NCBI RefSeq assembly: GCF_007197575.1
Contig: NZ_CP041616.1
Coordinates: forward strand, 2,852,001 to 2,916,000
Reading direction: 5' to 3'
DNA length: 64,000 nt
Source: Ornithinimicrobium ciconiae
Lineage (GTDB): Bacteria; Actinomycetota; Actinomycetes; Actinomycetales; Dermatophilaceae
In this document: piece after piece, positions 29,760 through 42,201 of the stretch
How the letters are laid out: every line of letters starts with the position of its first letter
How positions within the stretch are numbered: the first letter of the stretch is position 1
Made by a program: the position numbers and the translations under genes
Notes under the pieces: generated by a model
Database searches by the model: none
Seen by the model: only the letters and a program-made list of their open reading frames with translations
What the model was told of the DNA's origin: nothing

Positions 29760-30491
29760 TCATCCCGCCAGGCTGCGCACCAGCAGGGTCAGTGCCGAGG
29801 CAGCACAGACCAGCAACATGATGTTGCGGATCCGCAGGGGTGAAACGTGTCGACCGACCCGACCGGAGAGCCAGAGCCCGGCCAGCAGGAAGGGCACCAA
29901 GAGCGCGGCCAGCCAGACCTGGCGGGCCTCCAGCTGACCGCTGACACCGAGTCCGATCAGGCTGAACACCGCCCCCAGGACGAAATAGACCGCGAGCGTG
30001 CTGCGGATCTGCACCGGGGACCGGTGCTGATAGAGGATCGCGATGGGTGGGCCGCCGATCGAGGTGGCGGTGGAGGTGACTCCCGAGATGATGCCCGCCC
30101 CGACCAGCGTGGTGGGGGTGATCGGCACGGTCACCGTGTGCCGGGTGACCAGGACCGCTGCCAGCACCATCACGCCGACCGCCACGGACAGCTGCCGGAC
30201 GGTGAACAGAGAGACCAGCCAGACACCGAGCACGGTCCCGGGGATGCGGGCGGGCAGGGCCCACGCCAGCCCGCGCCAGTCGATCTCCTGGCGGTTGCGG
30301 GCCAGCTGCAGCAGGGGCAGCAGCGCCGCCGTGCACAGCAGCAGCCCCGGCATGAGCTCGGGGGCGACCAGGGTCGCGATCGGAGCGCCGACCAGCCCCA
30401 GGCCGAGGCCGACCAGGCCCTGCACCATCGTCCCCACGAGCAGGGCGAGCGCAATGACCGCCAACGCCCACAGTGGAACCCCGAGAATCAC
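29760..30491 (-). CDS. TauE/SafE-family sulfite/anion exporter
   Basis: 243-residue polytopic membrane protein with about 7-8 hydrophobic segments and the two TauE/SafE half-repeats: VGLGLGLVGAPIATLVAPELMPG near the N terminus and GIISGVTSTATSIGGPPIAILYQ in the second half. Substrates in the family include sulfite, sulfoacetate and other organic anions; the one here is unknown. It starts with GTG and is divergent from pncB across 36 bp. Confidence 0.9.
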   Translation of the reverse strand: MILGVPLWALAVIALALLVGTMVQGLVGLGLGLVGAPIATLVAPELMPGLLLCTAALLPLLQLARNRQEIDWRGLAWALPARIPGTVLGVWLVSLFTVRQLSVAVGVMVLAAVLVTRHTVTVPITPTTLVGAGIISGVTSTATSIGGPPIAILYQHRSPVQIRSTLAVYFVLGAVFSLIGLGVSGQLEARQVWLAALLVPFLLAGLWLSGRVGRHVSPLRIRNIMLLVCAASALTLLVRSLAG

Positions 30492-30527
30492 CGGCCCACC
30501 CTACGGCCCTCAATTACAGTGTGGCCC

Positions 30528-31850
30528 GTGACCAACCGCACCTCGCTCTTCACCGACCACTACGAACTGACCATGCTGCAGGCCGCCCTGGCCGGCGGTC
30601 ACGCCGACCGACGGTGCGTCTTCGAGGCCTTCACCCGGCGCCTGCCCGAGGGACGACGCTATGGGGTGGTCGCCGGGACCGGACGGTTTCTGGATGCGTT
30701 GGCAGACTTCACCTTCGGCCCCGAGGAGATCGATTTCCTGCGAGAGACCAAGGTCGTCAACGAGCAGACCCTGCAGTGGCTCACGGACTATCGGTTCAGC
30801 GGAGACATCTGGGGTTATGCGGAGGGTGAGTGCTACTTCCCCGGATCGCCCCTGCTCATCGTGGAGTCGACCTTCGCCGAGGGCGTCATCCTCGAGACCC
30901 TGCTCCTGTCGATCCTCAACCACGACTCGGCGGTCGCCGCCGCAGCCTCCCGGATGACGGCAACGGCCGGTGACCGGCCCTGCATCGAGATGGGCTCGCG
31001 GCGCACCCACGAGGAGTCGGCAGTGGCCGCCGCGCGGGCGGCATACATCGCGGGGTTCGGCTCCACCTCCAACCTGGAGGCGGGCCGCCGCCACGGGATC
31101 CCCACCAGAGGCACCGCGGCACACTCCTTCACCCTGCTGCACGACTCCGAGCGCGAGGCCTTTGCGGCTCAGCTGCAGAGTCTGGGTCTGGACACCACGC
31201 TGCTGGTCGACACCTATGACGTCACCGCTGCGGTCGAGCTCGCCGTCGAGCTGGCCGGTCCCGGGCTCGGCGGGGTGCGCCTGGACTCCGGTGACCTCGT
31301 CTCCCAGGCCCATGAGGTGCGTGCCCAGCTCGACGGGCTGGGGGCGCGGGACACACGCATCGTGGTCACCTCCGACCTGGACGAGTTCGCGATCGCGGCG
31401 CTGCAGGCGGCGCCCGTGGATGCCTATGGCGTGGGGACCCGGGTGGTCACCGGGTCCGGCGCTCCGGCGGCCGGCATGGTCTACAAGCTGGTCTCCCGTG
31501 AGGGAGCCGACGGGAAGTTCGAGGGGGTCGCCAAGGCGAGCAAGGACAAGGCCTCGGTCGGCGGGCGCAAGCACGCCCTGCGTCGGCGCAACTCCATGGG
31601 CGTTGCCCACGAGGAGCGCATCGGCATCGACATCACCCCCACGGACGACGGCGACGACCGCGACCTGCTCGTCCAGCTGGTCAGCGACGGCGAGGTGCAG
31701 GTGCCGACCGACGCGCACACCGCTCGTGAGCACCACACCGCCTCCCGTGCAGAGCTGCCGACCAAGGGCCTGCGCCTCTCGCAGGGTGAGCCGGCGATCC
31801 GCACGGTCTATGAGGACGAGGCCAGCCGCACCGAGGTCGAGGGGGACTAG
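30528..31850 (+). CDS. pncB: Nicotinate phosphoribosyltransferase
   Basis: 440-residue enzyme joining nicotinate and PRPP in NAD salvage. The N terminus TSLFTDHYELTMLQAALAGG is highly diagnostic; FEAFTRRLPEGRRYGVVAG, FGSTSNLEAGRRHGIPTRGTAAHSF and GVRLDSGDL follow. GTG 30528 is preferred because the longer in-frame extension is antisense to the exporter gene. TACAGT at 30515-30520 may be its -10, leaving almost no leader. pncA follows 118 bp downstream on the same strand. Confidence 0.96.
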   Translation: MTNRTSLFTDHYELTMLQAALAGGHADRRCVFEAFTRRLPEGRRYGVVAGTGRFLDALADFTFGPEEIDFLRETKVVNEQTLQWLTDYRFSGDIWGYAEGECYFPGSPLLIVESTFAEGVILETLLLSILNHDSAVAAAASRMTATAGDRPCIEMGSRRTHEESAVAAARAAYIAGFGSTSNLEAGRRHGIPTRGTAAHSFTLLHDSEREAFAAQLQSLGLDTTLLVDTYDVTAAVELAVELAGPGLGGVRLDSGDLVSQAHEVRAQLDGLGARDTRIVVTSDLDEFAIAALQAAPVDAYGVGTRVVTGSGAPAAGMVYKLVSREGADGKFEGVAKASKDKASVGGRKHALRRRNSMGVAHEERIGIDITPTDDGDDRDLLVQLVSDGEVQVPTDAHTAREHHTASRAELPTKGLRLSQGEPAIRTVYEDEASRTEVEGD

Positions 31851-31956
31851 GTCAGACCGCGGCTGGCGGCGTCGACGGCCCAGCCTGCTCCGACACTCCG
31901 TCACGGGCGCCGGTGTGACACAAGCACCACGTGCCGGACGCCCAGGACCACCGCGT

Positions 31957-31969
31957 TACCGTGGGCGCA
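31957..31969 (+). promoter_or_regulatory. Probable -10 element TACCGT for leaderless pncA
   Basis: TACCGT at 31957-31962 predicts a transcription start at 31969, the A of the pncA ATG. There is no ribosome-binding site before the gene. Confidence 0.45.
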
Positions 31970-32550
31970 TGACCCGGGCACTGATCATCGTTGACGTCCA
32001 ACTCGACTTCTGCGAGGGCGGCTCATTGGCCGTCGAGGGAGGCTCCGCCGTGGCTGCCGGCGTGACGGCTCACGTGGCCGCCCACGGCGGAGAGTATGCC
32101 GCGATCGTCGCGACCGCGGACTGGCACATCGATCCGGGGGACCACTGGTCGGACGAGCCGGACTTCGTGGACAGCTGGCCCGTGCACTGTGAGGCGGAGA
32201 CCGCCGGTGCCGAGTTCCGGCCCGAGCTGGCCGGCGCCCTCGACCACGTTCAGGCGGTCTTCCGCAAGGGGCAGTATGCCGCCGCCTACTCCGGCTTCGA
32301 GGGCAGCACCGAGGTCGACGGCTCGCCGGTCGGTCTGGCCGACTGGCTGCGCCAACGGGACGTCACCGGGGTCGACGTCGTCGGCATCGCCACCGACCAC
32401 TGCGTGCGGGCCACGGCCCTCGACGCGGTCGCCAATGGCCTGGAAGCCACGGTGCTGCTGGACCTGACCGCTGGTGTCGCACCGGAGTCCACCGAGGCTG
32501 CCGTCGAGGCGATGCGCGCCTCGGGTGTGACGCTGCGTCAGAGCACGTGA
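31969..32550 (+). CDS. pncA: Nicotinamidase
   Basis: 193-residue isochorismatase-fold hydrolase converting nicotinamide to nicotinate, the substrate of the adjacent pncB. LIIVDVQLDFCEGGSL contains the first catalytic Asp; the metal site is TADWHIDPGDHW (D, H, H). The second catalytic region FRKGQYAAAYSGFEG contains the Lys, and the nucleophile Cys is in IATDHCVRATALDA. It is the activator of pyrazinamide in mycobacteria. The two-gene salvage unit is complete here. Confidence 0.96.
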   Translation: MTRALIIVDVQLDFCEGGSLAVEGGSAVAAGVTAHVAAHGGEYAAIVATADWHIDPGDHWSDEPDFVDSWPVHCEAETAGAEFRPELAGALDHVQAVFRKGQYAAAYSGFEGSTEVDGSPVGLADWLRQRDVTGVDVVGIATDHCVRATALDAVANGLEATVLLDLTAGVAPESTEAAVEAMRASGVTLRQST

Positions 32551-32565
32551 GCCAGCAGGCCAGCC

Positions 32566-32655
32566 TCAGCTCTCGCGCTTGAAGAGCGCGTAGAACGCGT
32601 AGAGCACGACCACCAGGATCACGACGAAGATGGCGGAGTCGATGAGGGTCTGCAT
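32566..32655 (-). CDS. 29-residue single-span membrane peptide
   Basis: Short frame with ATG 32655 preceded by AGGAAC, encoding MQTLIDSAIFVVILVVVLY and ending ALFKRES: one hydrophobic helix of about 18 residues flanked by an acidic N side and a positively charged C side. It lies 59 bp after the RDD-family gene on the same strand, so it is probably co-transcribed. Small size limits certainty, but the start signal, topology and charge pattern are those of a real small membrane protein. Confidence 0.55.
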   Translation of the reverse strand: MQTLIDSAIFVVILVVVLYAFYALFKRES

Positions 32656-32714
32656 GATGTTCCTGTGCTAGATCGGGATGTGGGGTCCTGCGGAAATCGC
32701 AGCGTCACTGCTGG

Positions 32715-33665
32715 TCAGCGGCGCTTCTTGACGACGTTGGTCTTGGCGACCTTGTCGTTGAGCGACTGCTTGTTCTTGTCCCACAGCGGCCAGAGACCGT
32801 TGAGGAGGCCGAACAGGCCGGAGATGAACGAGAGCGACGCAAAGCCCGACAGCAGGTTGGGACCGAACCAGACCAGCGCCCGGATGACGGACGTCGCCCA
32901 GGACAACGGACCATCCTGGTCCCGCAGTCGCACCCGCAGTCCGGTGGCCATCTTGCCCACGGTCGCCCCAAACTGCTTCAGCATCAGCGCCTCGTAGACG
33001 ATGCCCAGCACTGCGGTCATGAGGCCATACATCAGCAGGTCGCTGGCGAGGCCTGAGGGCACGGTGAGGGAGTCGCCCGGGTCCATCACCCAGTCCATGT
33101 AGTCGCCGAAGAAGTCCGGCATGATCACCATGGCGAGCAGCGTCGACACGACGCCGATCAGGATGCCGTCGAGGATGCGGGCCAGGAAGCGCATGCCCCA
33201 GCTGGCGATGGGCTGTCCGTCCGGGGTGACCGGACCGGTCTCCAGGCCGGTGTAGCCTCCGCCGGGCATCGGCTGACCCCAGCCGCCCTGCTGCTGACCA
33301 TAGGGGTTGGCCTGCTGACCCGGCTGCCCGTACTGCGGCGCCTGTCCGTACTGCCCCTGCGGTCCGCCTGGCTGCTGCCCCGGCGCGCCGTACTGACCCC
33401 CCTGCCCATGACCCTGCTGTCCGTAGCCCGGCTGGCCCTGGCTAGCGTCCCCCTGCTGGCCCTGGCCGGCGTCCCCCTGCTGGCCGGCATACTGCCCCGG
33501 CTGTCCGTAACCCTGGCCCGCTGCCCCTGCGGCCCCCGCGCCTGCCTGGTCCAGACCAGGCTTCTGCTTGGGGCTGGTGTGCTCGGTCCACGTCACGCCG
33601 TCCCAGTAGCGCAGGCTGTCGCCGTCCTGCGGGTCGTCGTACCACCCTGCCTCACGTGTATTCAT
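32715..33665 (-). CDS. RDD-family membrane protein with DUF2510 and Gly/Gln-rich linker
   Basis: 316 residues. The N terminus (GWYDDPQDGDSLRYWDGVTWTEH) is a DUF2510 motif. Residues about 40-145 are Gly/Gln/Tyr-rich imperfect repeats (GQQGDAGQGQQGDASQGQPG-like). The C-terminal ~150 residues form an RDD domain with 3-4 membrane spans (GMRFLARILDGILIGV; GATVGKMATGLRVRLRDQDGP). ATG 33665, 8 bases after GGGAGG, is preferred to ATG 33671. The linker may be disordered or prone to phase separation. Function unknown. Confidence 0.85.
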   Translation of the reverse strand: MNTREAGWYDDPQDGDSLRYWDGVTWTEHTSPKQKPGLDQAGAGAAGAAGQGYGQPGQYAGQQGDAGQGQQGDASQGQPGYGQQGHGQGGQYGAPGQQPGGPQGQYGQAPQYGQPGQQANPYGQQQGGWGQPMPGGGYTGLETGPVTPDGQPIASWGMRFLARILDGILIGVVSTLLAMVIMPDFFGDYMDWVMDPGDSLTVPSGLASDLLMYGLMTAVLGIVYEALMLKQFGATVGKMATGLRVRLRDQDGPLSWATSVIRALVWFGPNLLSGFASLSFISGLFGLLNGLWPLWDKNKQSLNDKVAKTNVVKKRR

Positions 33666-33769
33666 GCCCATAGCCTCCCACGGCTGGGGCCGTGTCCCGA
33701 ACAACCACGCTGCCCCGCGCGGGTGTTGCGTAGCCCACGTCGTCAGCCGCCGGGTTGGCCTGCGGGCAG

Positions 33770-35521
33770 TCAGCGCCGCCCGACGAACCACCGCCGGATC
33801 GTCTCGATCCGCGTGGTGACCTGCTCGCTGCTGGCGGTGGCCAGCTCGGGGCCTCCGCAGGACCTGCGCAGCTCAGCGTGGACGATGGCGTGCGGCTGGC
33901 CCTTCTTCTGCGCGTAGGCCGAGACGAGCTTGTTGAGCTCCTTGCGGTGCTCGGCCAGCGCCCGGTGTGCCGAGACCTGCTCGGCCGCCTTGCGTCCCCC
34001 ACCGTTGCGGACCTGCTTGCGCTGACGGTCCCGCAGGACGTCGGCCACCTGGTCCGGCTCGAGCAGGCCGGGCAGTCCGAGATAGTCCTCCTCCTCCTGA
34101 CTGCCTGGCAGCGCGCCGAGGCCGAACTGCTCGGCGTCGAAGAGCACGTGGTCGAACAGGGCGTCGGACTCCAGCGCCTCGAAGGAGGCCTGCTCGGAGT
34201 CCAGGGCCTGCTCGGTCGCGTTCGCCTCTGCGACCAGGCTCTCCTCCGGAGTCCAGTCCAGACCGTCCTCGTCGGTGCGCTTCTTGTTGAGGGCGTGGTC
34301 GCGCTGGACCTCCATGGAGGCCGCGTGCCGCAGGATCAGCTCGACGCTGGGCAGGAAGACAGAGGCCGTCTCGCCACGGCGGCGGGCACGGACGAAACGC
34401 CCGATGGCCTGGGCGAAGTAGAGCGGCGTCGAGGTCGAGGTGGCGTAGACACCGACGCACAGGCGCGGCACGTCCACGCCCTCGGAGACCATCCGCACGG
34501 CGACCATCCACCGCGAGTCGCCCTCGGCGAACTTCTCGATGCGGGCGGAGGCTCCCGCGTCGTCGGAGAGCACCACGGTGGGCTTCTCACCGGTGAGCTC
34601 GGCCAGCTGCTTGGCGTAGGTCCGTGCGGACCGCTGGTCGCTGGCGATCACCAGCCCGCCGGCGTCCGGGACTCCGCGCCGGACCTCCGCCAGACGCTTG
34701 TCCGCGGCAGACAGGACCGTGGGGATCCACTCACCGGAGGGGTCCAGTGCCGTGCGCCAGGCCTGCTTGGACAGGTCCTTGGTCAGCTGCTCCCCCAGCT
34801 GGGCCGAGATCTCGTCACCGGCCTTGGTGCGCCACCGCATGCTCCCGCCGTAGGCCAGGAAGAGGACCGGCCGGACGACCCCGTCGCGGAGCGCCTCGGC
34901 GTAGCCGTAGGTGTAGTCCGACTCGGAGCGCAGGATGCCCTCGGTGTCCATGCCGTAGCGCACGAACGGGATGGCTGCCGTGTCGGACCGGAACGGGGTG
35001 CCGGTCAGCGACAGCCGACGGGTGGCCGGCTCGAAGGCCTCCCGGATGGCCTCCCCCCAGCTGAGGGCGTCCCCACCGTGGTGGATCTCGTCGAGGATGA
35101 CGAGGGTCCTGGCTGCCTCGGTGCGGGCCCGGTGCAGCAGCGGCTTGCTGGCCACGCCGGCATACGTCACGGCAACGCCACGGAAGTCTCCCCCGTGGCG
35201 TCCCTGGATGTTGGCAAAGCGGGGATCGATGCTGATGCCCACCTTGGCCGCGGCCTCGGCCCACTGGGTCTTGAGGTGCTCCGTGGGTGCCACGACCGTG
35301 ACCCGCTCGATGATCCCGGCGTCGATGAGCTCGGTCGCCACCTTCAGCGCGAAGGTCGTCTTGCCGGCACCGGGCGTCGCGACCGCGAGGAAGTCACGCG
35401 GCCCGTCTGCGAGGTACTGGTCAAGGGCCGCCTGCTGCCAGGCGCGCAGTTTGCCGGCGGTCCCCCACGCAGCGCGTTCGGGATAGGCGGGGGGAAGGTG
35501 AGAAGCAGCTGAGGTGGACAT
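33770..35521 (-). CDS. DEAD/DEAH-box superfamily II helicase
   Basis: 583-residue helicase. Walker A is ATPGAGKTTFALKVATEL (about residues 48-65), the DEAH-type box is VILDEIHHGGDA, motif III is LTGTPFRSD, motif V is MVSEGVDVPRLCVGVYAT, and motif VI is QAIGRFVRARRRGE. The C-terminal ~180 residues are charged and helical with no recognised domain. It resembles the conserved actinobacterial 'DNA/RNA helicase of superfamily II' group, sometimes compared with XPB. It is not next to recognisable restriction or defence genes. Confidence 0.88.
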   Translation of the reverse strand: MSTSAASHLPPAYPERAAWGTAGKLRAWQQAALDQYLADGPRDFLAVATPGAGKTTFALKVATELIDAGIIERVTVVAPTEHLKTQWAEAAAKVGISIDPRFANIQGRHGGDFRGVAVTYAGVASKPLLHRARTEAARTLVILDEIHHGGDALSWGEAIREAFEPATRRLSLTGTPFRSDTAAIPFVRYGMDTEGILRSESDYTYGYAEALRDGVVRPVLFLAYGGSMRWRTKAGDEISAQLGEQLTKDLSKQAWRTALDPSGEWIPTVLSAADKRLAEVRRGVPDAGGLVIASDQRSARTYAKQLAELTGEKPTVVLSDDAGASARIEKFAEGDSRWMVAVRMVSEGVDVPRLCVGVYATSTSTPLYFAQAIGRFVRARRRGETASVFLPSVELILRHAASMEVQRDHALNKKRTDEDGLDWTPEESLVAEANATEQALDSEQASFEALESDALFDHVLFDAEQFGLGALPGSQEEEDYLGLPGLLEPDQVADVLRDRQRKQVRNGGGRKAAEQVSAHRALAEHRKELNKLVSAYAQKKGQPHAIVHAELRRSCGGPELATASSEQVTTRIETIRRWFVGRR

Positions 35522-35595
35522 CGCGGATCAGGATACGAGTTGCCGGGGACAGTTCAGGACCGGCCCGACAAAGGTGCTGGTCGGCTGCGTGCCGC

Positions 35596-35904
35596 CTACT
35601 CCCCGCCGTCCTGCGGCGCCCGCAAACCCTCGTAGATCTCCTTGCAGGCCGGGCACACCGGGAACTTCTTGGGGTCTCGTCCCGGGACCCAGACCTTGCC
35701 GCAGAGAGCGATCACAGGCTCGCCGGAGAGGGCGCTCTCCATGATCTTCTCCTTGCGCACATAGTGCGAGAAGCGCTCATGGTCACCGGGCTCGCTGAGC
35801 CGGGGGTCGGTGCTGGTGTCCTCCCGCTCGAGCACCGCGGTCTGCGTGGACGGCGCACTCGGGGCCTCCGGGGCATCCAGTGGCTGGGACATCTTCAGTG
35901 GCAT
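35596..35904 (-). CDS. DUF3039 family protein
   Basis: 102-residue actinobacterial protein: HERFSHYVRKEKIMESALSGEPVIALCGKVW, then GRDPKKFPVCPACKEIYEGL. It has three Cys (ALCGK and CPAC), likely a zinc site. ATG 35904 has GAGG 6 bases upstream; ATG 35922 and ATG 35892 are alternatives. It lies upstream of the helicase on the same strand (74-bp gap), and this neighbour pair is common in Actinobacteria. Role unknown. Confidence 0.85.
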   Translation of the reverse strand: MPLKMSQPLDAPEAPSAPSTQTAVLEREDTSTDPRLSEPGDHERFSHYVRKEKIMESALSGEPVIALCGKVWVPGRDPKKFPVCPACKEIYEGLRAPQDGGE

Positions 35905-35978
35905 CGTCGACCTCACAGACATACACCGAGTCTACTGGGCACCCTGCGAGCGAGCCCGTGCCCTCCGGTGCGTCGTCC

Positions 35979-36572
35979 TCAGTTCTGCTCGGGGTCGCTG
36001 GTGTAGTTGGCGACCAACGACAGCGAACTGCGCTGGCGGACCAGCACCTCGCGCCAGAAGTCCGCGGTCTCGTGGAAGGGGTCGCGCGGCTCGCGCTCGA
36101 CGACATACCAGGCGCCCTGGACCAGCTCTGCCTCGAGCTGTCCGGCGCCCCATCCGGCGTAGCCCACAAAGATCCGCAGCCCGGCGAGCTCGGGGACCAC
36201 CACCGGCGGTGGGACGTCGAGGTCGACGAGAGCCAGCCCGCCGAAGAGCATCGAGATGCCCAGCGTCTCGGCCTGCACCGCCTCCCCTCCCGGCACGCTG
36301 ACCAGGCCCATCGCGGAGTCCATCTGGACCGGACCGCCCTGGAAGAGGACCCCTGGTGCGGTCACGTGCGGTTGCCAGTCCGGCAGCACCGCAGCGACCT
36401 CGGCACTCATCGGCTTGTTGAGGGTGACGCCGGTGGCCCCGTCCTCGTCGTGGTGCAGGATCAGCACCACCGAGCGCTCGAAGAACTCGCCGGTCATCGG
36501 GGTCGCCACGAGCAGGTGGCCGGTCAGCGAGCCGGCGTCCTCTGCGGGGGTCCCCTGCTCACCCGCGCTCAC
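35979..36572 (-). CDS. YqgE/AlgH family protein
   Basis: 197-residue DUF179 protein: LTGHLLVATPMTGEFFERSVVLILHHDEDGATGVTLNKP is the full N-terminal signature, and VLFQGGPVQMDSAM and FVGYAGWGAGQLEAELVQGAWYVV follow. The fold is known; the biochemical role is not, although AlgH affects alginate and virulence in Pseudomonas. The start is GTG 36572. It overlaps the VanZ gene by 4 bp, so they are co-translated. Confidence 0.93.
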   Translation of the reverse strand: MSAGEQGTPAEDAGSLTGHLLVATPMTGEFFERSVVLILHHDEDGATGVTLNKPMSAEVAAVLPDWQPHVTAPGVLFQGGPVQMDSAMGLVSVPGGEAVQAETLGISMLFGGLALVDLDVPPPVVVPELAGLRIFVGYAGWGAGQLEAELVQGAWYVVEREPRDPFHETADFWREVLVRQRSSLSLVANYTSDPEQN

Positions 36573-36964
36573 CGCCGGCTCCCGGCCGCGGCCGGGACCG
36601 CGGCGTCGGCGGGTCGGACCGCTGCCGGGCGACGCGCCCGGAGCACGAGCACCAGGGCCACCGCCAGCCCGATCCCCACCACGTCAGCGACCAGGTCCCA
36701 GACGTCGGCGGTGCGCGTGGTGGTGAGCAGGCCCTGCAGCGGCTCGCTGACGACGGCATGCAGGAGTATGCCGAGCACCACCAGCCGGGCGCCGAGCAGG
36801 AACGCCAGGGTCGTGGGCACCCCGAACAGGAGGGCGTGCGCCACCTTGTCCTGGCCCTGGAAGTAGGGCTCCCCCGCCCCCGGCGTCAGCAGATAGAGCC
36901 CCCAGACCTGAGCCGCCAGCAGGGTGAGCAGCAGGAGCCACCCGAGCCCCCGGCATACGGTCAT
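36569..36964 (-). CDS. VanZ-like family membrane protein
   Basis: 131-residue protein with four hydrophobic segments. The family core FQGQDKVAHALLFG and RTADVWDLVADVVGIGLAVALV (D, D, G) is present. VanZ lends teicoplanin resistance in enterococci, but most relatives are of unknown function. ATG 36964 places the first helix (LGWLLLLTLLAAQVWGLYLL) at residue 7. The upstream malic enzyme gene ends 29 bp before it. The C terminus is Arg/Ala/Pro-rich. Confidence 0.85.
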   Translation of the reverse strand: MTVCRGLGWLLLLTLLAAQVWGLYLLTPGAGEPYFQGQDKVAHALLFGVPTTLAFLLGARLVVLGILLHAVVSEPLQGLLTTTRTADVWDLVADVVGIGLAVALVLVLRARRPAAVRPADAAVPAAAGSRR

Positions 36965-36992
36965 CACCGCAGCCGGAGGTGCCCACGCAGCG

Positions 36993-38417
36993 TCAGGAGG
37001 TGGCGTCGACACGCTCTCGGGCGACCTTCTCCACGGCCTGGGCCACGGCCTTACTGACCTTGGGGTTGAACACGCTGGGGATGATGTAGGTCGGGTTGCG
37101 CTCGTCGGCTCCCACCACGTCGGAGAGGGCGATCGCGGCTGCCAGTAGCATCTCGTCGGTGATGTGGTCGCTCTGGGCATCCATCAGCCCGCGGAAGACG
37201 CCGGGGAAGACCAGGACGTTGTTGATCTGGTTGGCGAAGTCGCTGCGCCCGGTGGCCACGACCGTGGCGTGCTCGGCGGCATCGGCGGGATCCACCTCGG
37301 GTGTCGGGTTGGCCATCGCGAAGACGATGGCGTCCGGTCCCATCGTGGCGATGTCGTCGCCGGTGAGGATCCCGCCGGCGGAGACGCCGATGAAGACGTC
37401 CGCACCGACCAGGGCCTCGGTGAGCAATCCACGCAGGCCGCCCTTGTTGGTCTGCGACGCGATCCAGGCCATGTTGGCGTTGTCTCCGCGGGCGATGTCG
37501 GCGCGCTCGGAGTGCAGCACCCCGTGGACGTCGGACACGATGACGTCCGTCGCACCGGCCATGAGCAGCAACCGCAGGATGGCCGAGCCGGCAGCACCGG
37601 CACCGGACAGGACGATCTTGACGTCGGGGAGCTCCTTGTCGACCACCCGCAGCGCGTTGCGCAGGGCCGCCAGGACGACGATGGCGGTGCCGTGCTGGTC
37701 GTCGTGGAAGACCGGGATGTCGAGTTCCTCGCGCAGGCGGCGCTCGATGTAGAAGCAGCGGGGCGCGGAGATGTCCTCCAGGTTGATCCCCGCAAAGCCC
37801 GGGGCGATCGCCTTGACGATGCGCACGATCTCGTCGGCGTCCTTGGTGTCCAGCACGATCGGGAAGGCGTCCACGTCGGCGAACCGCTTGAACAGGGCGG
37901 CCTTGCCCTCCATGACGGGCAAGGCGGCCAGCGGACCGATGTCTCCCATGCCCAGGACCGCGGTGCCGTCGGTGACCACGGCGACGGTGTTGCGCTTGAT
38001 GGTCAGGCGGCGCGCGTCCTCGGGGTTGTCGACGATGGCCTGGCAGACGCGGGCCACGCCGGGGGTGTAGATCATGGACAGGTCGTCACGGTTGCGGATC
38101 GGCTGCTTGGACTCGACGCTGAGCTTGCCGCCCAGGTGCATGAGGAAGGTGCGGTCGCTGACCTTGCCGATCTCGACGCCGGGGACCTTGCGCATCGCCT
38201 CAACGATCTGCGTCGCGTGCGCCTCACCCCAGGTGGCGATGGTGATGTCGGTGCGCAGCCGCTCCGCGCCGGACTCGGCGATGTCGACCGCGGTGACCAT
38301 GCCACCTTCCTTCTCCACTGCGGAGCTGAGCTCACCCACAGCCGTCGCCCGGGCGGGCAGTTCGAGACGGACGGTGATCGAGTTGGAGATGGACGGCGAG
38401 AATCCCATGACGGCCAT
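36993..38417 (-). CDS. NAD(P)-dependent malic enzyme with N-terminal ACT-like domain
   Basis: 474 residues. The first ~85 residues (SITVRLELPARATAVGELSSAVEKEGG...) look like an ACT regulatory domain. The malic domain has IYTPGVARVCQAI, TDGTAVLGMGDIGPLAALPVMEGKA, NLEDISAPRCF and HDDQHGTAIVVLAAL (catalytic Lys/Asp). The NAD domain has IVLSGAGAAGSAILRLL. It decarboxylates malate to pyruvate. ATG 38417 has GGAAC upstream. It is divergent from thioredoxin across 95 bp. The cofactor preference is not certain from sequence. Confidence 0.94.
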   Translation of the reverse strand: MAVMGFSPSISNSITVRLELPARATAVGELSSAVEKEGGMVTAVDIAESGAERLRTDITIATWGEAHATQIVEAMRKVPGVEIGKVSDRTFLMHLGGKLSVESKQPIRNRDDLSMIYTPGVARVCQAIVDNPEDARRLTIKRNTVAVVTDGTAVLGMGDIGPLAALPVMEGKAALFKRFADVDAFPIVLDTKDADEIVRIVKAIAPGFAGINLEDISAPRCFYIERRLREELDIPVFHDDQHGTAIVVLAALRNALRVVDKELPDVKIVLSGAGAAGSAILRLLLMAGATDVIVSDVHGVLHSERADIARGDNANMAWIASQTNKGGLRGLLTEALVGADVFIGVSAGGILTGDDIATMGPDAIVFAMANPTPEVDPADAAEHATVVATGRSDFANQINNVLVFPGVFRGLMDAQSDHITDEMLLAAAIALSDVVGADERNPTYIIPSVFNPKVSKAVAQAVEKVARERVDATS

Positions 38418-38512
38418 TGTTCCGTATGACGGGACCTCCGCGCCCGAGGCCACGGGCGTGTGACCAAGATCGCGGTTGGGAATCCTTGCCCGCCGAGCCT
38501 TGTTACCCCGCC

Positions 38513-38902
38513 ATGAGCACTACCGAACTGACCCGTGAAAACCTGGACCAGACCCTCGCCGACAACGAGATCGTGCTGATCGACTGGTGGGCCGAGTGGT
38601 GCGGACCGTGCCGCGCGTTCGCCCCGGTCTATGAGCAGGTCTCGAAGAAGCACGAGGACGTCGTGTTCGGCAAGATCGACACCGAGGCACAGCAGGAGCT
38701 GGCCGCTGGCGCCCAGATCACCTCGATCCCGACGGTGATGGCGTTCCGGGACGGCATCCTGCTCTTTGCCCAGCCAGGCGTGCTGCCCGCCGCCGGCCTG
38801 GAGAGCCTGATCGGCCAGCTCAAGGAGCTCGACATGGATGAGGTGCGCGCCAAGCTGGCGACGGCCGAGTCGGAGATGGCTGACGACCCCGCTCAGGGCT
38901 GA
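38513..38902 (+). CDS. Thioredoxin with C-terminal extension
   Basis: 129-residue thioredoxin fold. The active site is IDWWAEWCGPCRAFAPVYE with the canonical WCGPC, cis-Pro in ITSIPTVMAFRDG, and then LESLIGQLKELDMDEVRAKLATAESE, a helical extension beyond the usual ~107 residues. There is no signal peptide, so it is cytoplasmic. ATG 38513 starts the conserved region. No thioredoxin reductase is nearby. Confidence 0.93.
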   Translation: MSTTELTRENLDQTLADNEIVLIDWWAEWCGPCRAFAPVYEQVSKKHEDVVFGKIDTEAQQELAAGAQITSIPTVMAFRDGILLFAQPGVLPAAGLESLIGQLKELDMDEVRAKLATAESEMADDPAQG

Positions 38903-38918
38903 GCCTGGGCTGTTTGGC

Positions 38919-38960
38919 TTGACTCAGGTCAAGGACTGTCGGCCGGCGCATCCCTAGGCT
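38919..38960 (+). promoter_or_regulatory. FNR/DNR-type box with class II spacing
   Basis: TTGAC-TCAG-GTCAA at 38919-38932 is a perfect 5-4-5 inverted repeat, the pattern bound by FNR/DNR/NnrR-type CRP-family regulators. A -10 element TAGGCT lies at 38955-38960; its predicted start (38967) puts the box centre at -41.5, the class II activator position. The downstream gene has AAGGAG and ATG 38996. Confidence 0.7.
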
Positions 38961-38995
38961 GGGAGGACCACCCAGCCAACAAGGAGTGTCCCCTG

Positions 38996-39253
38996 ATGAC
39001 TGACCTGTCGACCGCGCTAGAGCTCGCCCCTGTCGTCGAGCGCGTTCATGGCGACAACCACCCCGAGCTCACGCGCGTGCGAGAGCTGACCGAGCAGATC
39101 TCACAGTCAGCCGTTGCCACCGAGACCACGCAGCTGTTCCGTGAGTTGCGCACGATCACGCAGGACTACGCCGTCCCCAGCGATGGCTGCGAGGCCTTCA
39201 CCTCGGTCTACGACTCCTTGCGGGCGGCCGACGCGAGCCACGCCAAGGCATGA
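38996..39253 (+). CDS. Small hemerythrin/RIC-related protein of unknown function
   Basis: 85 residues: VVERVHGDNHPELTRVRELTEQ, then FRELRTITQDYAVPSDGCEAF and TSVYDSLRAADASHAKA. It resembles parts of RIC/YtfE/ScdA iron-sulfur repair proteins (VHGDxHPEL and DYxPPxxACxxxxAxYxxLxxL). The full four-helix His/Glu di-iron ligand set is lacking; only two N-terminal His and one C-terminal His remain. It could be a degenerate or shortened hemerythrin, or a distinct small family. The upstream FNR-type box and downstream cupin suggest oxygen or NO control. Confidence 0.6.
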   Translation: MTDLSTALELAPVVERVHGDNHPELTRVRELTEQISQSAVATETTQLFRELRTITQDYAVPSDGCEAFTSVYDSLRAADASHAKA

Positions 39254-39263
39254 GGGGCACTCG

Positions 39264-39545
39264 ATGAGGAAGACCGTCTCCCTGGCAGAAGGCGCGGTGC
39301 TCGTCACGAAGCGGATGGAAGGCACCGAGGGGAGCGTGTTCCCGCCGCACACGGCCTCGCGTGAATCGGTCCTGGTCGTGATGGAGGGGACCTGCACCAT
39401 CACGTTCGCGGACGCGGTGCACGAACTTCGCGCCGGCGACACGTTCGTGGTCCCGGCGGACGAGGTCCACCACGTTGCGGGCGTCCCAGACTTCGCCGCT
39501 GTCCACGTTATGCCCAAGGACATCCGCTTCAACTTCATCGTGTGA
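39264..39545 (+). CDS. Cupin domain-containing protein
   Basis: 93-residue single-domain cupin: FPPHTASRESVLVVMEGTCTITFADAVHELRAGDTFVVPADEVHHVAGVPDFAAVHVM. The two cupin motifs (PHxxxxE-type and H near DEVHH) give plausible metal ligands. It starts 10 bp after the hemerythrin-related gene, so they form an operon under the FNR-type box. No enzymatic activity can be assigned. Confidence 0.85.
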   Translation: MRKTVSLAEGAVLVTKRMEGTEGSVFPPHTASRESVLVVMEGTCTITFADAVHELRAGDTFVVPADEVHHVAGVPDFAAVHVMPKDIRFNFIV

Positions 39546-39823
39546 GACCATCGTGTGAGACCCACGACGGGGCATCGAGTTCCTGGCTTGCCGGCTAGCC
39601 CAACACGAAAGCCCCTCGGATCGGCGCGGCAGCCCGCTGGTCCCTCTGGGTCCGTCTAGTAAGGCGTGCCTGCCCGCCGTGCCGATCAGGTTCGGGTCAT
39701 CGAAAACGGCGGAGATGTTGTGGCAGACTCGCACTATCGGGTGCTCCTGTTATCTGGTCGATCGGAACTGTCGCAAGTCCCATCGTCCCAGGTCACAGGG
39801 GCATTCGTGCGTTACGACTCGGC
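39546..39823. other. Gene-free gap between cupin gene and integrase remnant
   Basis: 278 bp with no convincing coding region, RNA or attachment site. No copy of the ssrA 3' end is found here, so the left boundary of any integrated element cannot be placed. The base composition is slightly less GC-rich than its surroundings. Confidence 0.5.
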
Positions 39824-40964
39824 TTAGTCACCAATCACATCGGCGGATCGAGGCTGAGCGGTCGCGTGCTGGTACCGCAGCGCCACCGTGACATCGGTAT
39901 GCCCGCCACGGTGCAATAGCTCGGCCAGTGTGGCACCTTGCTCCGCATACTTGCTGAGCCCCGTGTGCCGCAGGTTGTGGAAGTGGAGTCCTGGCCGGCC
40001 AGCATCATCCCTCGCGGCCCTCCAAGCTTTGTCCAGGGCGGTCTGGGAGACCCGGGCTCCGCGGGCGCCTACGAGGACCGGCGCGGTGCGCTCACACGGC
40101 GTGTAGGTCTCGAGGTGTTGCCTCAGCGTGGGCAGCAGCGCGGCAGGAACGGCGACGCTCCTGACGCTGTCCGCCTTCGGCGGTGTGAGCGCGTTGGCTT
40201 TAACGTTCCACTGTCGCCGAATATGGAGGATCGCCCGATCGGGGTCCTCCAGGTGCTCCAAGTCCCGGCGTTGCAGCCCTAGAACCTCCCCGATCCGAAG
40301 CGCGCACCACGCGGCGAGTGGGACGGCGATCCGCAGGTGCTCGGGCATCGCCTCGGTGAGCGCCTTGATTTCCACCGGTGTCGCCACGTCCCCGTGCTCG
40401 TCCTCCGGTCGGACTCGGCGGTGCTTGGCGGCCTGCGGGAAGTCGAAGGCCTGCAGGCCCCCGATCTTGGCCTTGACGGCGGCGTTGATCATTGACCGGA
40501 GGACGATGACGACGTTCGGCGCGACACCATTGACGCGGGCATCCGGGTGTCGTTTCGATGGTCGGCGGGTGAGGGTGGCAAGGTGGTCGGCCACCCGCTC
40601 GGTGGTTAGTTCAGCCATCCGGATGTGTCCTAGTTCGTCGAGCACGTGGTTCTTGAGCACCGAACGGTACGAGACCACCGTTGCCTGGGAACGGGTCGGG
40701 TTGGCCTCCAGCGCGGCCAGCCAAGTGTCGGACCATTCCTTGAGCGTCACTGACTGGGCTTCTGCCCTAGCAACCTCGGCCTTCGGCCGGCGGGACGAAC
40801 CGGCCTCGCGCGGCCTCCCCGCGAGCAATGTCCATGGCGGCGCGGGCGTCTGTCAGGGTGTCGAACATGCCGAGAGCGTGGGTGCGGCCCTCATGGTCGA
40901 TCCTGACCCGGTAGCGATCACGGTACCGAGTGATGCCTCTCGGCAACTTACCGGGTGCGGCCAT
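39824..40964 (-). pseudogene. Tyrosine-type phage integrase, frameshifted
   Basis: The N-terminal part starts at ATG 40964 (MAAPGKLPRGITRYRDRYRV; an AP2-like arm-binding domain, ending RGRFVPPAEGRG). The remainder lies in another frame: TLKEWSDTWLAALEANPTRS (core-binding) and the catalytic domain with ALRIGEVLGLQ (Arg), HNLRHTG (HxxR), GGHTDVTVALRYQHA (His and Tyr). A single 1-nt shift in the CCGCCGGCCGAAGGCC stretch (about 40775-40800) separates them; the first frame stops at 40767. Catalytic residues survive, but a full-length protein would need frameshifting. It lies just downstream of the ssrA 3' end, a common integration site. Confidence 0.85.
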
Positions 40965-41102
40965 GCGTCCTCCACGTGTGCCACTGTTGTTGCAAGGCCC
41001 GTCCAGCCCTGTCATCCAGGTCCAGCATGCCCCGTGACAGCAGTGTGACAGAAATTCTGGCGTCACATGTGTAGACATGTCCAGTCGTGTCCTCGGCGCA
41101 AA

Positions 41103-41138
41103 AACCCCGGACCTGCTTGTTTGCGCAGGTCCGGGGTT
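41103..41138 (-). terminator. Rho-independent terminator of ssrA
   Basis: A 14-bp perfect stem, AACCCCGGACCTGC (41103-41116) with its complement at 41125-41138 and an 8-nt loop. Read on the minus strand the stem is followed by TTTTT. It lies 38 nt past the tmRNA 3' end. Confidence 0.85.
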
Positions 41139-41176
41139 CTTTGTGCCCGAATTGTGTGACGTGCCCACCGCAAAGG

Positions 41177-41539
41177 TGGAGGTGGCGGGAATCGAACCCG
41201 CGTCCGCTGCCGGAAGACCAGGACTTCTCCGGGTGCAGTGCGCTATGGAGTTTCTCGGCCCCAGGGCTCGCGCGCACACGTTCCCTGACAGGCCCAGTTG
41301 AGTAAGAGTCCCACGTGATCCCCCAACATGATCACGCAGCAAGTTTCCTAGCTGATGCCAGACACTGAGGCGGAAACTAACTCAGGCTGACAGACTTCGG
41401 GCTCGCTCAGGCGGCGAGGGCGAAGTCGGTGCGCTTGGAATCGGCACCTATTAGTTTGCAAGGGACATTAACGAGTTGACCTTGCGTTCTCGACCCGCTT
41501 CTCCTGGAGTCGCGTACAACGTCGAAACCGATCACCCCC
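41177..41539 (-). ncRNA. ssrA: tmRNA
   Basis: 363-nt transfer-messenger RNA that rescues stalled ribosomes with SmpB. The 5' end is GGGGGUGAUCGGUUUCGACG and the 3' end is GGGUUCGAUUCCCGCCACCUCC plus A; GGGGGUG pairs with CACCUCC (one G-U) as the 7-bp acceptor stem and the T loop UUCGAUU is intact. CCA is not encoded. The tag frame is at 41445-41407 and encodes ADSKRTDFALAA and stop TGA. The gene lies 1.2 kb from smpB. An integrase remnant borders its 3' end. Confidence 0.96.
41407..41445 (-). other. tmRNA proteolysis-tag reading frame
   Basis: Resume codon GCC (41445-41443) followed by codons for ADSKRTDFALAA and TGA. The ALAA ending is the usual degron for ClpXP-type proteases. Confidence 0.92.
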
Positions 41540-41718
41540 ATGGAGCGGGGGCACGTCACACTGTGCAGTTATCAAGTCTCCGGCAGCGGCGAACCGAGCC
41601 GGAGGGTGCAGCCTACCCGTCCAACGTCGCTCCGGTCCACCGCATTCCCCACCCCCTCGGCCCGCCGCCCTCCCGCGCGTTCCGGACGCCGGCGGGCCCT
41701 GAGGTAAAGTCCCCCGGC

Positions 41719-42201
41719 GTGACCTCCACCAACCAGCTCATGACCCTCCGTATGCTCTCCGGCGCCTTCATCGGCGGCATCGCGATCCTCACGGCGCTCA
41801 TGGTCGTGATCGCCCCGGACATGGTCGTGCCTGAGCCGTGGGTGATCGCGGTCCTGCTCGGACTCGTGGCCGCGGGCGCCGTGCTGTCCCTGGTGCTCGT
41901 GGGGACCCTGCCCGCGGCGCCCCAGGGCGCCACCCTGACCGAGCTGCTTTCCAAGGTGCAGGCGGTGCACATCATGCGCCTGGCCGTGACGGAGGCCCCG
42001 GCCATCATCGCCATCGTGCTGATGTTCCTCGCCGAGGAGCCCTCATGGGTCACCGTCGCGATCGCCGCCGTGCCGACCATCGTGGTCATGCTCGCGCTGG
42101 TGTTCCCGCACGAGGGCGTCCTGCGCCGCTACGAGAAGGCCCTGGACGCCGGCGGTGCGCGCACCCAGTTCACCGACAAGCTGCTGGGCCGCGTCGCCTG
42201 A
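41719..42201 (+). CDS. Hypothetical four-span membrane protein
   Basis: 160 residues from GTG 41719 with four hydrophobic segments: LSGAFIGGIAILTALMVVIA, WVIAVLLGLVAAGAVLSLVL, APAIIAIVLMFLA, and VTVAIAAVPTIVVMLALVF. The C terminus is cytoplasmic and charged. TAAAGT at 41705-41710 is a possible -10 that would leave almost no leader. A longer upstream in-frame start overlaps tmRNA and is unlikely. Function unknown; it is followed by a strong bidirectional hairpin. Confidence 0.8.
   Translation: MTSTNQLMTLRMLSGAFIGGIAILTALMVVIAPDMVVPEPWVIAVLLGLVAAGAVLSLVLVGTLPAAPQGATLTELLSKVQAVHIMRLAVTEAPAIIAIVLMFLAEEPSWVTVAIAAVPTIVVMLALVFPHEGVLRRYEKALDAGGARTQFTDKLLGRVA

Follow-up and report, generated by a model that had tools for sequence, protein, structure and literature searches.

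What does a short relative of the RIC/YtfE iron-sulfur repair proteins do beside a small cupin, behind an FNR-type promoter box? The window (the whole 64-kb stretch of DNA analyzed) contains such a pair, and the short protein, here called mini-RIC (ORF1), together with its cupin and FNR-type switch looks like part of a stress and metal-handling gene set, not a stray fragment. The pair is probably one of two operons in a small FNR/FLP-type regulon for redox or metal stress. The earlier note on this DNA had proposed an NO- or oxygen-responsive unit; its observation is confirmed, and its interpretation is partly supported.

The arrangement of features in the window suggests a class II promoter followed by two genes. 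A terminator-like hairpin is found 3' of the upstream thioredoxin gene (38891-38910, plus strand; one found, 0.3 expected), and based on the predicted function of this hairpin the mini-RIC and cupin genes look like a separate transcription unit. The box, TTGACTCAGGTCAA (38919-38932, no strand assigned), is an exact TTGAC-N4-GTCAA and the only one in the window, where the mean of 100 shuffles was 0.01. The -10-like hexamer TAGGCT, a weak example of TAnnnT, lies on the plus strand at 38955-38960, 36 nt from the box measured start to start. If the transcript starts near 38967, as predicted, the box centre at 38925.5 would be at -41.5, which is the class II layout; an FNR class II test promoter carries the name FF-41.5 in the accessible text of PMC4505428. 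A ribosome-site-like AAGGAG (38981-38986, plus strand) precedes mini-RIC (85 amino acids, 38996-39253, plus strand), and the single-domain cupin (93 amino acids, 39264-39545, plus strand) begins 10 nt after it. The perfect box, its spacing and the two-gene unit of a short RIC/YtfE relative and a small cupin had all been described in the earlier note, and all three hold.

The motif by itself is weak evidence when counted over the genome. The pattern TTGAYNNNRGTCAA has three forward and two reverse matches at three places in the 4.09-Mb genome of the window, and the reversed control pattern has one forward and two reverse matches. The significance of the box thus comes from the conserved spacing of 36 nt to the hexamer (+36) and not from the motif count alone. 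One of the three places is the mini-RIC and cupin pair, and another is the 3' end of a nitrilase-like gene. At the third place the box, with TACCTT at +36, precedes a gene for an HMA-domain protein and one for a P1B-type ATPase with a CPG motif (G000:C1, about 435.8-438.1 kb).

As judged from the sequences of relatives, the promoter layout is kept at single-base precision across phyla. Within the genus, genome G009 has the box TTGACGCAGGTCAA before mini-RIC with TAACCT at +36, and its HMA gene has a box with TACCTT at +36. A perfect box is found near the start of the HMA-ATPase genes in all 16 of the same-genus genomes that have the ATPase, which adds support, and TAnnnT is present at +36 in 13 of them (including G009, G001, and G019), while its absence in the remaining three takes some support away. 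Those three, G012, G018, and G023, have the most divergent ATPases (49-53% identical), with the CPG motif present. Beyond the genus, 50 short-RIC loci from Lactobacillales, Clostridia, Spirochaetes, and others were searched, and in 43 of them a strict box lies no more than 150 nt away from one of the cassette genes (regulator, HMA, mini-RIC, and ATPase), while seven have none. L204, which has no mini-RIC, and L222, which is the same place as L010, were left out of the box count, and identical promoters were counted once. The earlier note had staked its reading on conservation of the box and its spacing in relatives, and as far as sequence tells both are conserved: TAnnnT is at +36 in 62 of the 63 distinct cassette-gene boxes and in 14 of the 93 other boxes from the same loci, the 63 being related by descent and not independent, and the 93 perhaps including some members of the regulon. 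On actinobacterial plasmids, the HMA boxes of Microbacterium and Cellulomonas sp. C5510 have one mismatch and that of G036 has two, all with TAnnnT at +36. No box was found before HMA in the Chelativorans and Halorubrum pieces.

What is widely conserved, on the evidence of gene neighborhoods, is the proximity of mini-RIC to the genes for an HMA protein, a P1B ATPase, and a Crp/Fnr regulator. The neighborhoods comprised 38 Lactobacillales regions of up to 12 kb and 12 contig loci with flanks of up to 3 kb; regions were analyzed for 39 of the 62 Lactobacillales genomes with mini-RIC. Among these 50 loci the cassette-type ATPase is found in 33, the HMA protein in 33, and the regulator in 22. At least one of the three is present in 37 loci and none in 13, whose flanks are 3 to 6 kb and in some cases end at contig ends. 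A short protein of several phyla is now linked to a metal ATPase cassette associated with Crp/Fnr regulators. A literature search on the cassette, the short RIC, and FLP, with most subscription papers outside its coverage, found no earlier description of the cassette; the accessible main text of PMC6985202 contains neither "Crp" nor "ZntA".

Plasmids carry the cassette with further partners, often without mini-RIC. A Tetragenococcus plasmid has Dps, a Crp/Fnr regulator, HMA, short RIC, and ATPase, with boxes followed by TAnnnT at +36 before Dps, the regulator, HMA-RIC, and the ATPase. Listeria plasmid pLMR479a (L276) has a cupin, FetAB, Dps, regulator, HMA, and ATPase; a six-frame scan found no short RIC in it. 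Its boxes with the +36 hexamer are before Dps, the regulator, HMA, and the ATPase, and no strict box was found near cupin-FetAB. An E. faecium plasmid has Dps, regulator, HMA, and ATPase with three boxes and the +36 hexamer. The ATPase gene is followed by a cupin gene on the plasmids of Cellulomonas sp. C5510 and Microbacterium sp. No. 7. The six-frame scan of plasmid pieces found short RIC in L224 and L225 only, and the ATPase occurs without mini-RIC in the pieces from Listeria, E. faecium, Microbacterium, Cellulomonas, Corynebacterium, Chelativorans, and Halorubrum.

The window's genome encodes one candidate for the regulator. The earlier note had proposed looking for a CRP/FNR-family regulator elsewhere in the genome, and two proteins score above the HTH_Crp_2 cut-off, one GlxR-like and one FNR-like. 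The FNR-like protein (G000:C1:810991-811686) has the helix TTPESLSR and is 53% identical to the regulator adjoining HMA-ATPase on the Microbacterium plasmid. Control of the pair by GlxR/CRP was rejected on the helix of the second protein, RETVNK; the usual GlxR/CRP site differs from this box. Cellulomonas sp. C5510, Corynebacterium marinum, and G036 have a regulator of another Crp/Fnr subtype next to their ATPase (26-32% identity). No good box was found at the regulator gene itself in the window's genome. A gene that we take to be fdhD-like precedes the regulator gene (L099:3914-5690), and this neighbor hints at a connection with molybdenum enzymes.

The cysteines of the candidate regulator resemble those of FLP and not those of FNR. 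FNR, an Fe-S oxygen sensor, has an N-terminal cysteine cluster plus a central cysteine, and FLP-type regulators have one N-terminal and one central cysteine. The candidate has one of each at conserved places and lacks the FNR cluster. Across 26 aligned regulators, one of which repeats another, the central cysteine and an E[ST][ILV]SR helix are present in all, and the N-terminal cysteine, and with it the FLP-type pair, in 25 (L204 lacks it). These two conserved cysteines make a response to oxygen or redox state plausible. The set resembles the class II promoters of FNR, HcpR, and DNR in its TTGAY-N4-RTCAA box, with a predicted centre at about -41.5, and in the E..SR recognition helix of the candidate. 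It differs from them in the missing cysteine cluster and in the boxed genes: in place of denitrification genes or hcp, these encode an HMA protein, a P1B ATPase, mini-RIC, and a cupin. The flp operons of L. lactis and FLP of Lactobacillus casei also combine a two-cysteine Crp/Fnr regulator with a metal and oxidative-stress theme, and the present set is like them in both respects.

The occurrence of the regulator and the ATPase in the genus is consistent with this pairing. Of the 31 same-genus genomes, 16 have the ATPase (E 1e-150 or better), and precisely these 16 also encode a regulator at least 51% identical to the candidate. The Fisher value is 3e-9, uncorrected for kinship, and the 51% line was set after the gap to GlxR-like matches at 29-33% had been seen. 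The two genes are within a few kb of each other in G012, G018, and G019. RIC-type genes are found in seven of the 16 genomes, two short and five full-length, and in none of the other 15 at E 1e-3 (p 0.004, or 0.023 if the marginal match in G029 is counted).

In the mechanism proposed here, redox, oxygen, or metal stress would alter the cysteines of the regulator at G000:C1:810991-811686. The protein would bind the box at -41.5 and activate, in class II fashion, both the mini-RIC and cupin operon and the operon of HMA and the CPG-motif ATPase. The HMA protein and the ATPase would move a transition metal. Mini-RIC would serve through its loop end as an accessory metal-binding, carrier, or docking factor, and the cupin might be a second accessory. 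The regulon may then be the local edition of the cassette of regulator, HMA, mini-RIC, and ATPase in Firmicutes, Spirochaetes, and plasmids, which on some plasmids also has Dps, FetAB, or a cupin nearby.

The box and the RIC kinship also fit a different unit, in which a DNR/NnrR/HcpR-type regulator responds to nitrosative stress by inducing a RIC-like repair protein. The box is identical to the HcpR consensus TTGACnnnnGTCAA, and hemerythrin-like genes are frequent in predicted HcpR regulons (both from the accessible text of PMC1274295). In addition, two full-length RIC genes of the genus (loci L235 and L236) are boxed, with TAACGT at +37 in G005 and at +36 in G027. The identity with the HcpR consensus makes NO sensing possible, but the gene content gives no call for it. 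Mini-RIC has no di-iron ligand motifs, the full-length RIC genes of G018, G023, and G024 are without a box, and the cassette partners are metal genes. A regulon for NO or denitrification was rejected for the window's genome, since neither hcp, nor, nor a denitrification gene is found at the three places of the strict pattern. The NO response suggested in the earlier note is therefore unsupported, and a canonical NO-responsive unit is unlikely.

The metal genes could instead mean that the regulator cysteines bind copper, zinc, or another metal directly and that the regulon serves plain metal resistance. The HMA protein is closest to CopZ-type models (below their cut-offs), the ATPase is above the cut-offs of TIGR01525 and TIGR01512, and other plasmid neighbors of the cassette are merA, CopB, CueP, and ZIP. 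However, the regulators are of the Crp/Fnr type, which is not a classical metalloregulator family, and have an FNR-like recognition helix. Iron or redox is also suggested, by the Dps and FetAB neighbors and by the last ATPase helix with its HE. That last helix has an HE..S motif, shared by the cassette ATPases and followed by N, and it resembles P1B-4 ATPases, for which the accessible text of PMC10800456 gives SPC ... HEGGT(X)5N. At the other motif they part: the partner ATPases have CPG (31 of 33) in place of SPC. Direct metal sensing with plain resistance is less likely, and a redox or metal-stress regulon is preferred.

In its structural model, mini-RIC corresponds to the distal half of a RIC helix bundle whose iron-binding half is missing. 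ORF1 matches no Pfam family even at E 10, and its score against the RIC model TIGR03652 (40 bits) is below the cut-off of 204.7. In an alignment of three short forms with six full-length RICs, the residues kept are V14, V17, H18, G19, D20, N21, H22, P23, E24, P61, D63, C65, and L75. All four motifs that presumably supply the di-iron ligands (HH, H..EE, H, and H..EN) are absent from the short forms, which begin after the N-terminal CC-containing domain and lack it. The loop HGDNHPE (residues 18-24, codons at 39047-39067, plus strand) is invariant in alignments A2 and A3, and the mini-RIC of G009 has HGAHHPE. In the second loop, PSDGCE (residues 61-66, codons at 39176-39193, plus strand), P61, D63, C65, and E66 are invariant in A2. 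Mini-RIC is thus like RIC/YtfE/ScdA in ancestry, in the HGxxHPE and PxDxC loops, and in the distal-half helix bundle, and it differs in length (85-100 amino acids for the short form, about 220 for RIC) as well as in the missing domain and ligands. The earlier note had called it a short hemerythrin relative; the RIC/YtfE kinship stands, and with the ligand motifs gone the name hemerythrin is true by ancestry only. In one record a family member is named "iron-sulfur cluster repair di-iron protein, ric", and this name conflicts with the lack of ligands.

The AlphaFold2 model contains a RIC-type helix bundle (pLDDT 92.7, pTM 0.82) with helices at 5-18, 24-37, 41-54, and 66-84. Structurally it is closest to S. 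aureus ScdA/RIC and E. coli YtfE, with 85 of 85 residues superposing at 1.4-1.7 A on ScdA 89-211 or YtfE 86-204 (Foldseek E 0.017-0.65). Designed bundles are close behind in Z, so the RIC assignment rests on the shared loops. By the topology of the model, both loops (between helices 1-2 and 3-4) should be at one end of the bundle. Mini-RIC may, as a tentative possibility, be a small metal-handling or docking protein in which the HGDNHPE and PxDxC loops are the binding site for a metal, or for a partner such as the HMA protein or the ATPase, and no di-iron site is involved. If so, the distal end of full-length RIC would be a second, unrecognized functional site that mini-RIC has isolated. Because the short form has the conserved RIC loop end without the iron centre, the purpose of that end becomes directly testable.

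Short RIC is common in some distant groups and rare in the group of the window. A scan of genome contigs found 72 relatives, of which 12 (L007-L018, one with an in-frame stop) make up a distinct short type, about 100 amino acids long, from Clostridia, Vagococcus, Atopostipes, and Spirochaetes. Another 14 relatives with frames examined are full-length RIC, and full-length frames were found in 64 of the 68 loci tried. The short-form profile also finds matches in Lactobacillales, in 62 of 295 genomes, and all of the frames listed are 174 amino acids or shorter. In the class of the window, mini-RIC was found in one of 394 genomes drawn, the window's own (G009 was outside the draw). Within the genus it was found in two of 31 genomes, with one further marginal match in G029, and 14 of the 16 genomes with both regulator and ATPase lack it. 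The earlier note had raised the possibility of a conserved two-gene system, and at two of 31 genomes the pair with the cupin is too rare for that. The results go beyond that first reading in another direction: a half RIC without a di-iron site belongs to a regulon-like set kept across phyla.

The sequences favor a single origin of the short forms and transfer into this genus. A first tree drew on 31 of the 50 short and 26 of the 64 full forms, with 97 columns that included some beside deletions. A second tree used the 57 columns common to short and full forms, with three long-branch mini-RICs also dropped, and in it one branch, with support of 100/99, has every one of the 28 short forms on the same side; for this reason one origin is favored. 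The grouping, and the fact that the sequences nearest to the window's mini-RIC are other mini-RICs, make it improbable that the latter is a separate shortening of an actinobacterial RIC that converged on the Firmicutes form. In favor of such an origin, it shares DGC with the boxed full-length RICs of G005 and G027, and the AU test does not reject trees that join it to full RICs of the genus (p-AU 0.17 and 0.23).

A functionless, decaying remnant of a full-length RIC gene is hardly credible as a description of ORF1. Loss of the N-terminal domain and of all the di-iron ligand motifs would be expected of such a remnant, and in-frame stops do occur in Vagococcus L010 and in a few second copies in Lactobacillales. 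However, the reading is already contradicted by the numerous short-form matches in Lactobacillales with their uniformly short listed frames, by short forms in Clostridia and Spirochaetes, by the invariant loops, the conserved promoter, and the confident fold. Both genes of the pair look to be under purifying selection from their codons: dN is 0.24 and dS 0.61 for mini-RIC compared with G009, and 0.13 and 0.75 for the cupin, each from one pair only. The stop in Vagococcus elongatus (L010:2992-3252) is a TAA between the conserved halves and may reflect a pseudogene or a sequencing error.

The genomic surroundings of the pair differ, with a thioredoxin gene and an integrase gene in the window and other neighbors in G009. 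The tyrosine integrase gene (39824-40828, minus strand) adjoins the 3' end of the tmRNA gene (41175-41539, minus strand), where integration typically occurs. A repeat search of 30000-42000 and a comparison of the tmRNA gene's final 60 nt with the window both gave no att-like repeat, so carriage of the pair on an integrase element is unproven. The pair as an integration remnant was set aside on the same grounds, the integrase being adjacent but without an att-like repeat.

The cupin scores 37.1 bits against Cupin_2, above the Pfam cut-off of 27.2, and no close relative was found in 196 other genomes of the class (the best is 34% identical). The plasmid cupins are 26-33% identical to it over 33-43 residues, a similarity too weak for them to be accepted as orthologs. 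With so weak a resemblance and no close relative in the class, a cupin near the cassettes may recur by coincidence.

Some plasmid cassettes contain another small protein. Proteins of 105 amino acids without a Pfam family are encoded at L228:3963-4280 in Corynebacterium marinum and L224:3314-3631 in Tetragenococcus. They have no match to the mini-RIC profile and were rejected as mini-RICs. The two are alike by eye, both lie inside Crp/Fnr-HMA-ATPase cassettes, and L228:3963-4280 has a box with TAnnnT at +36.
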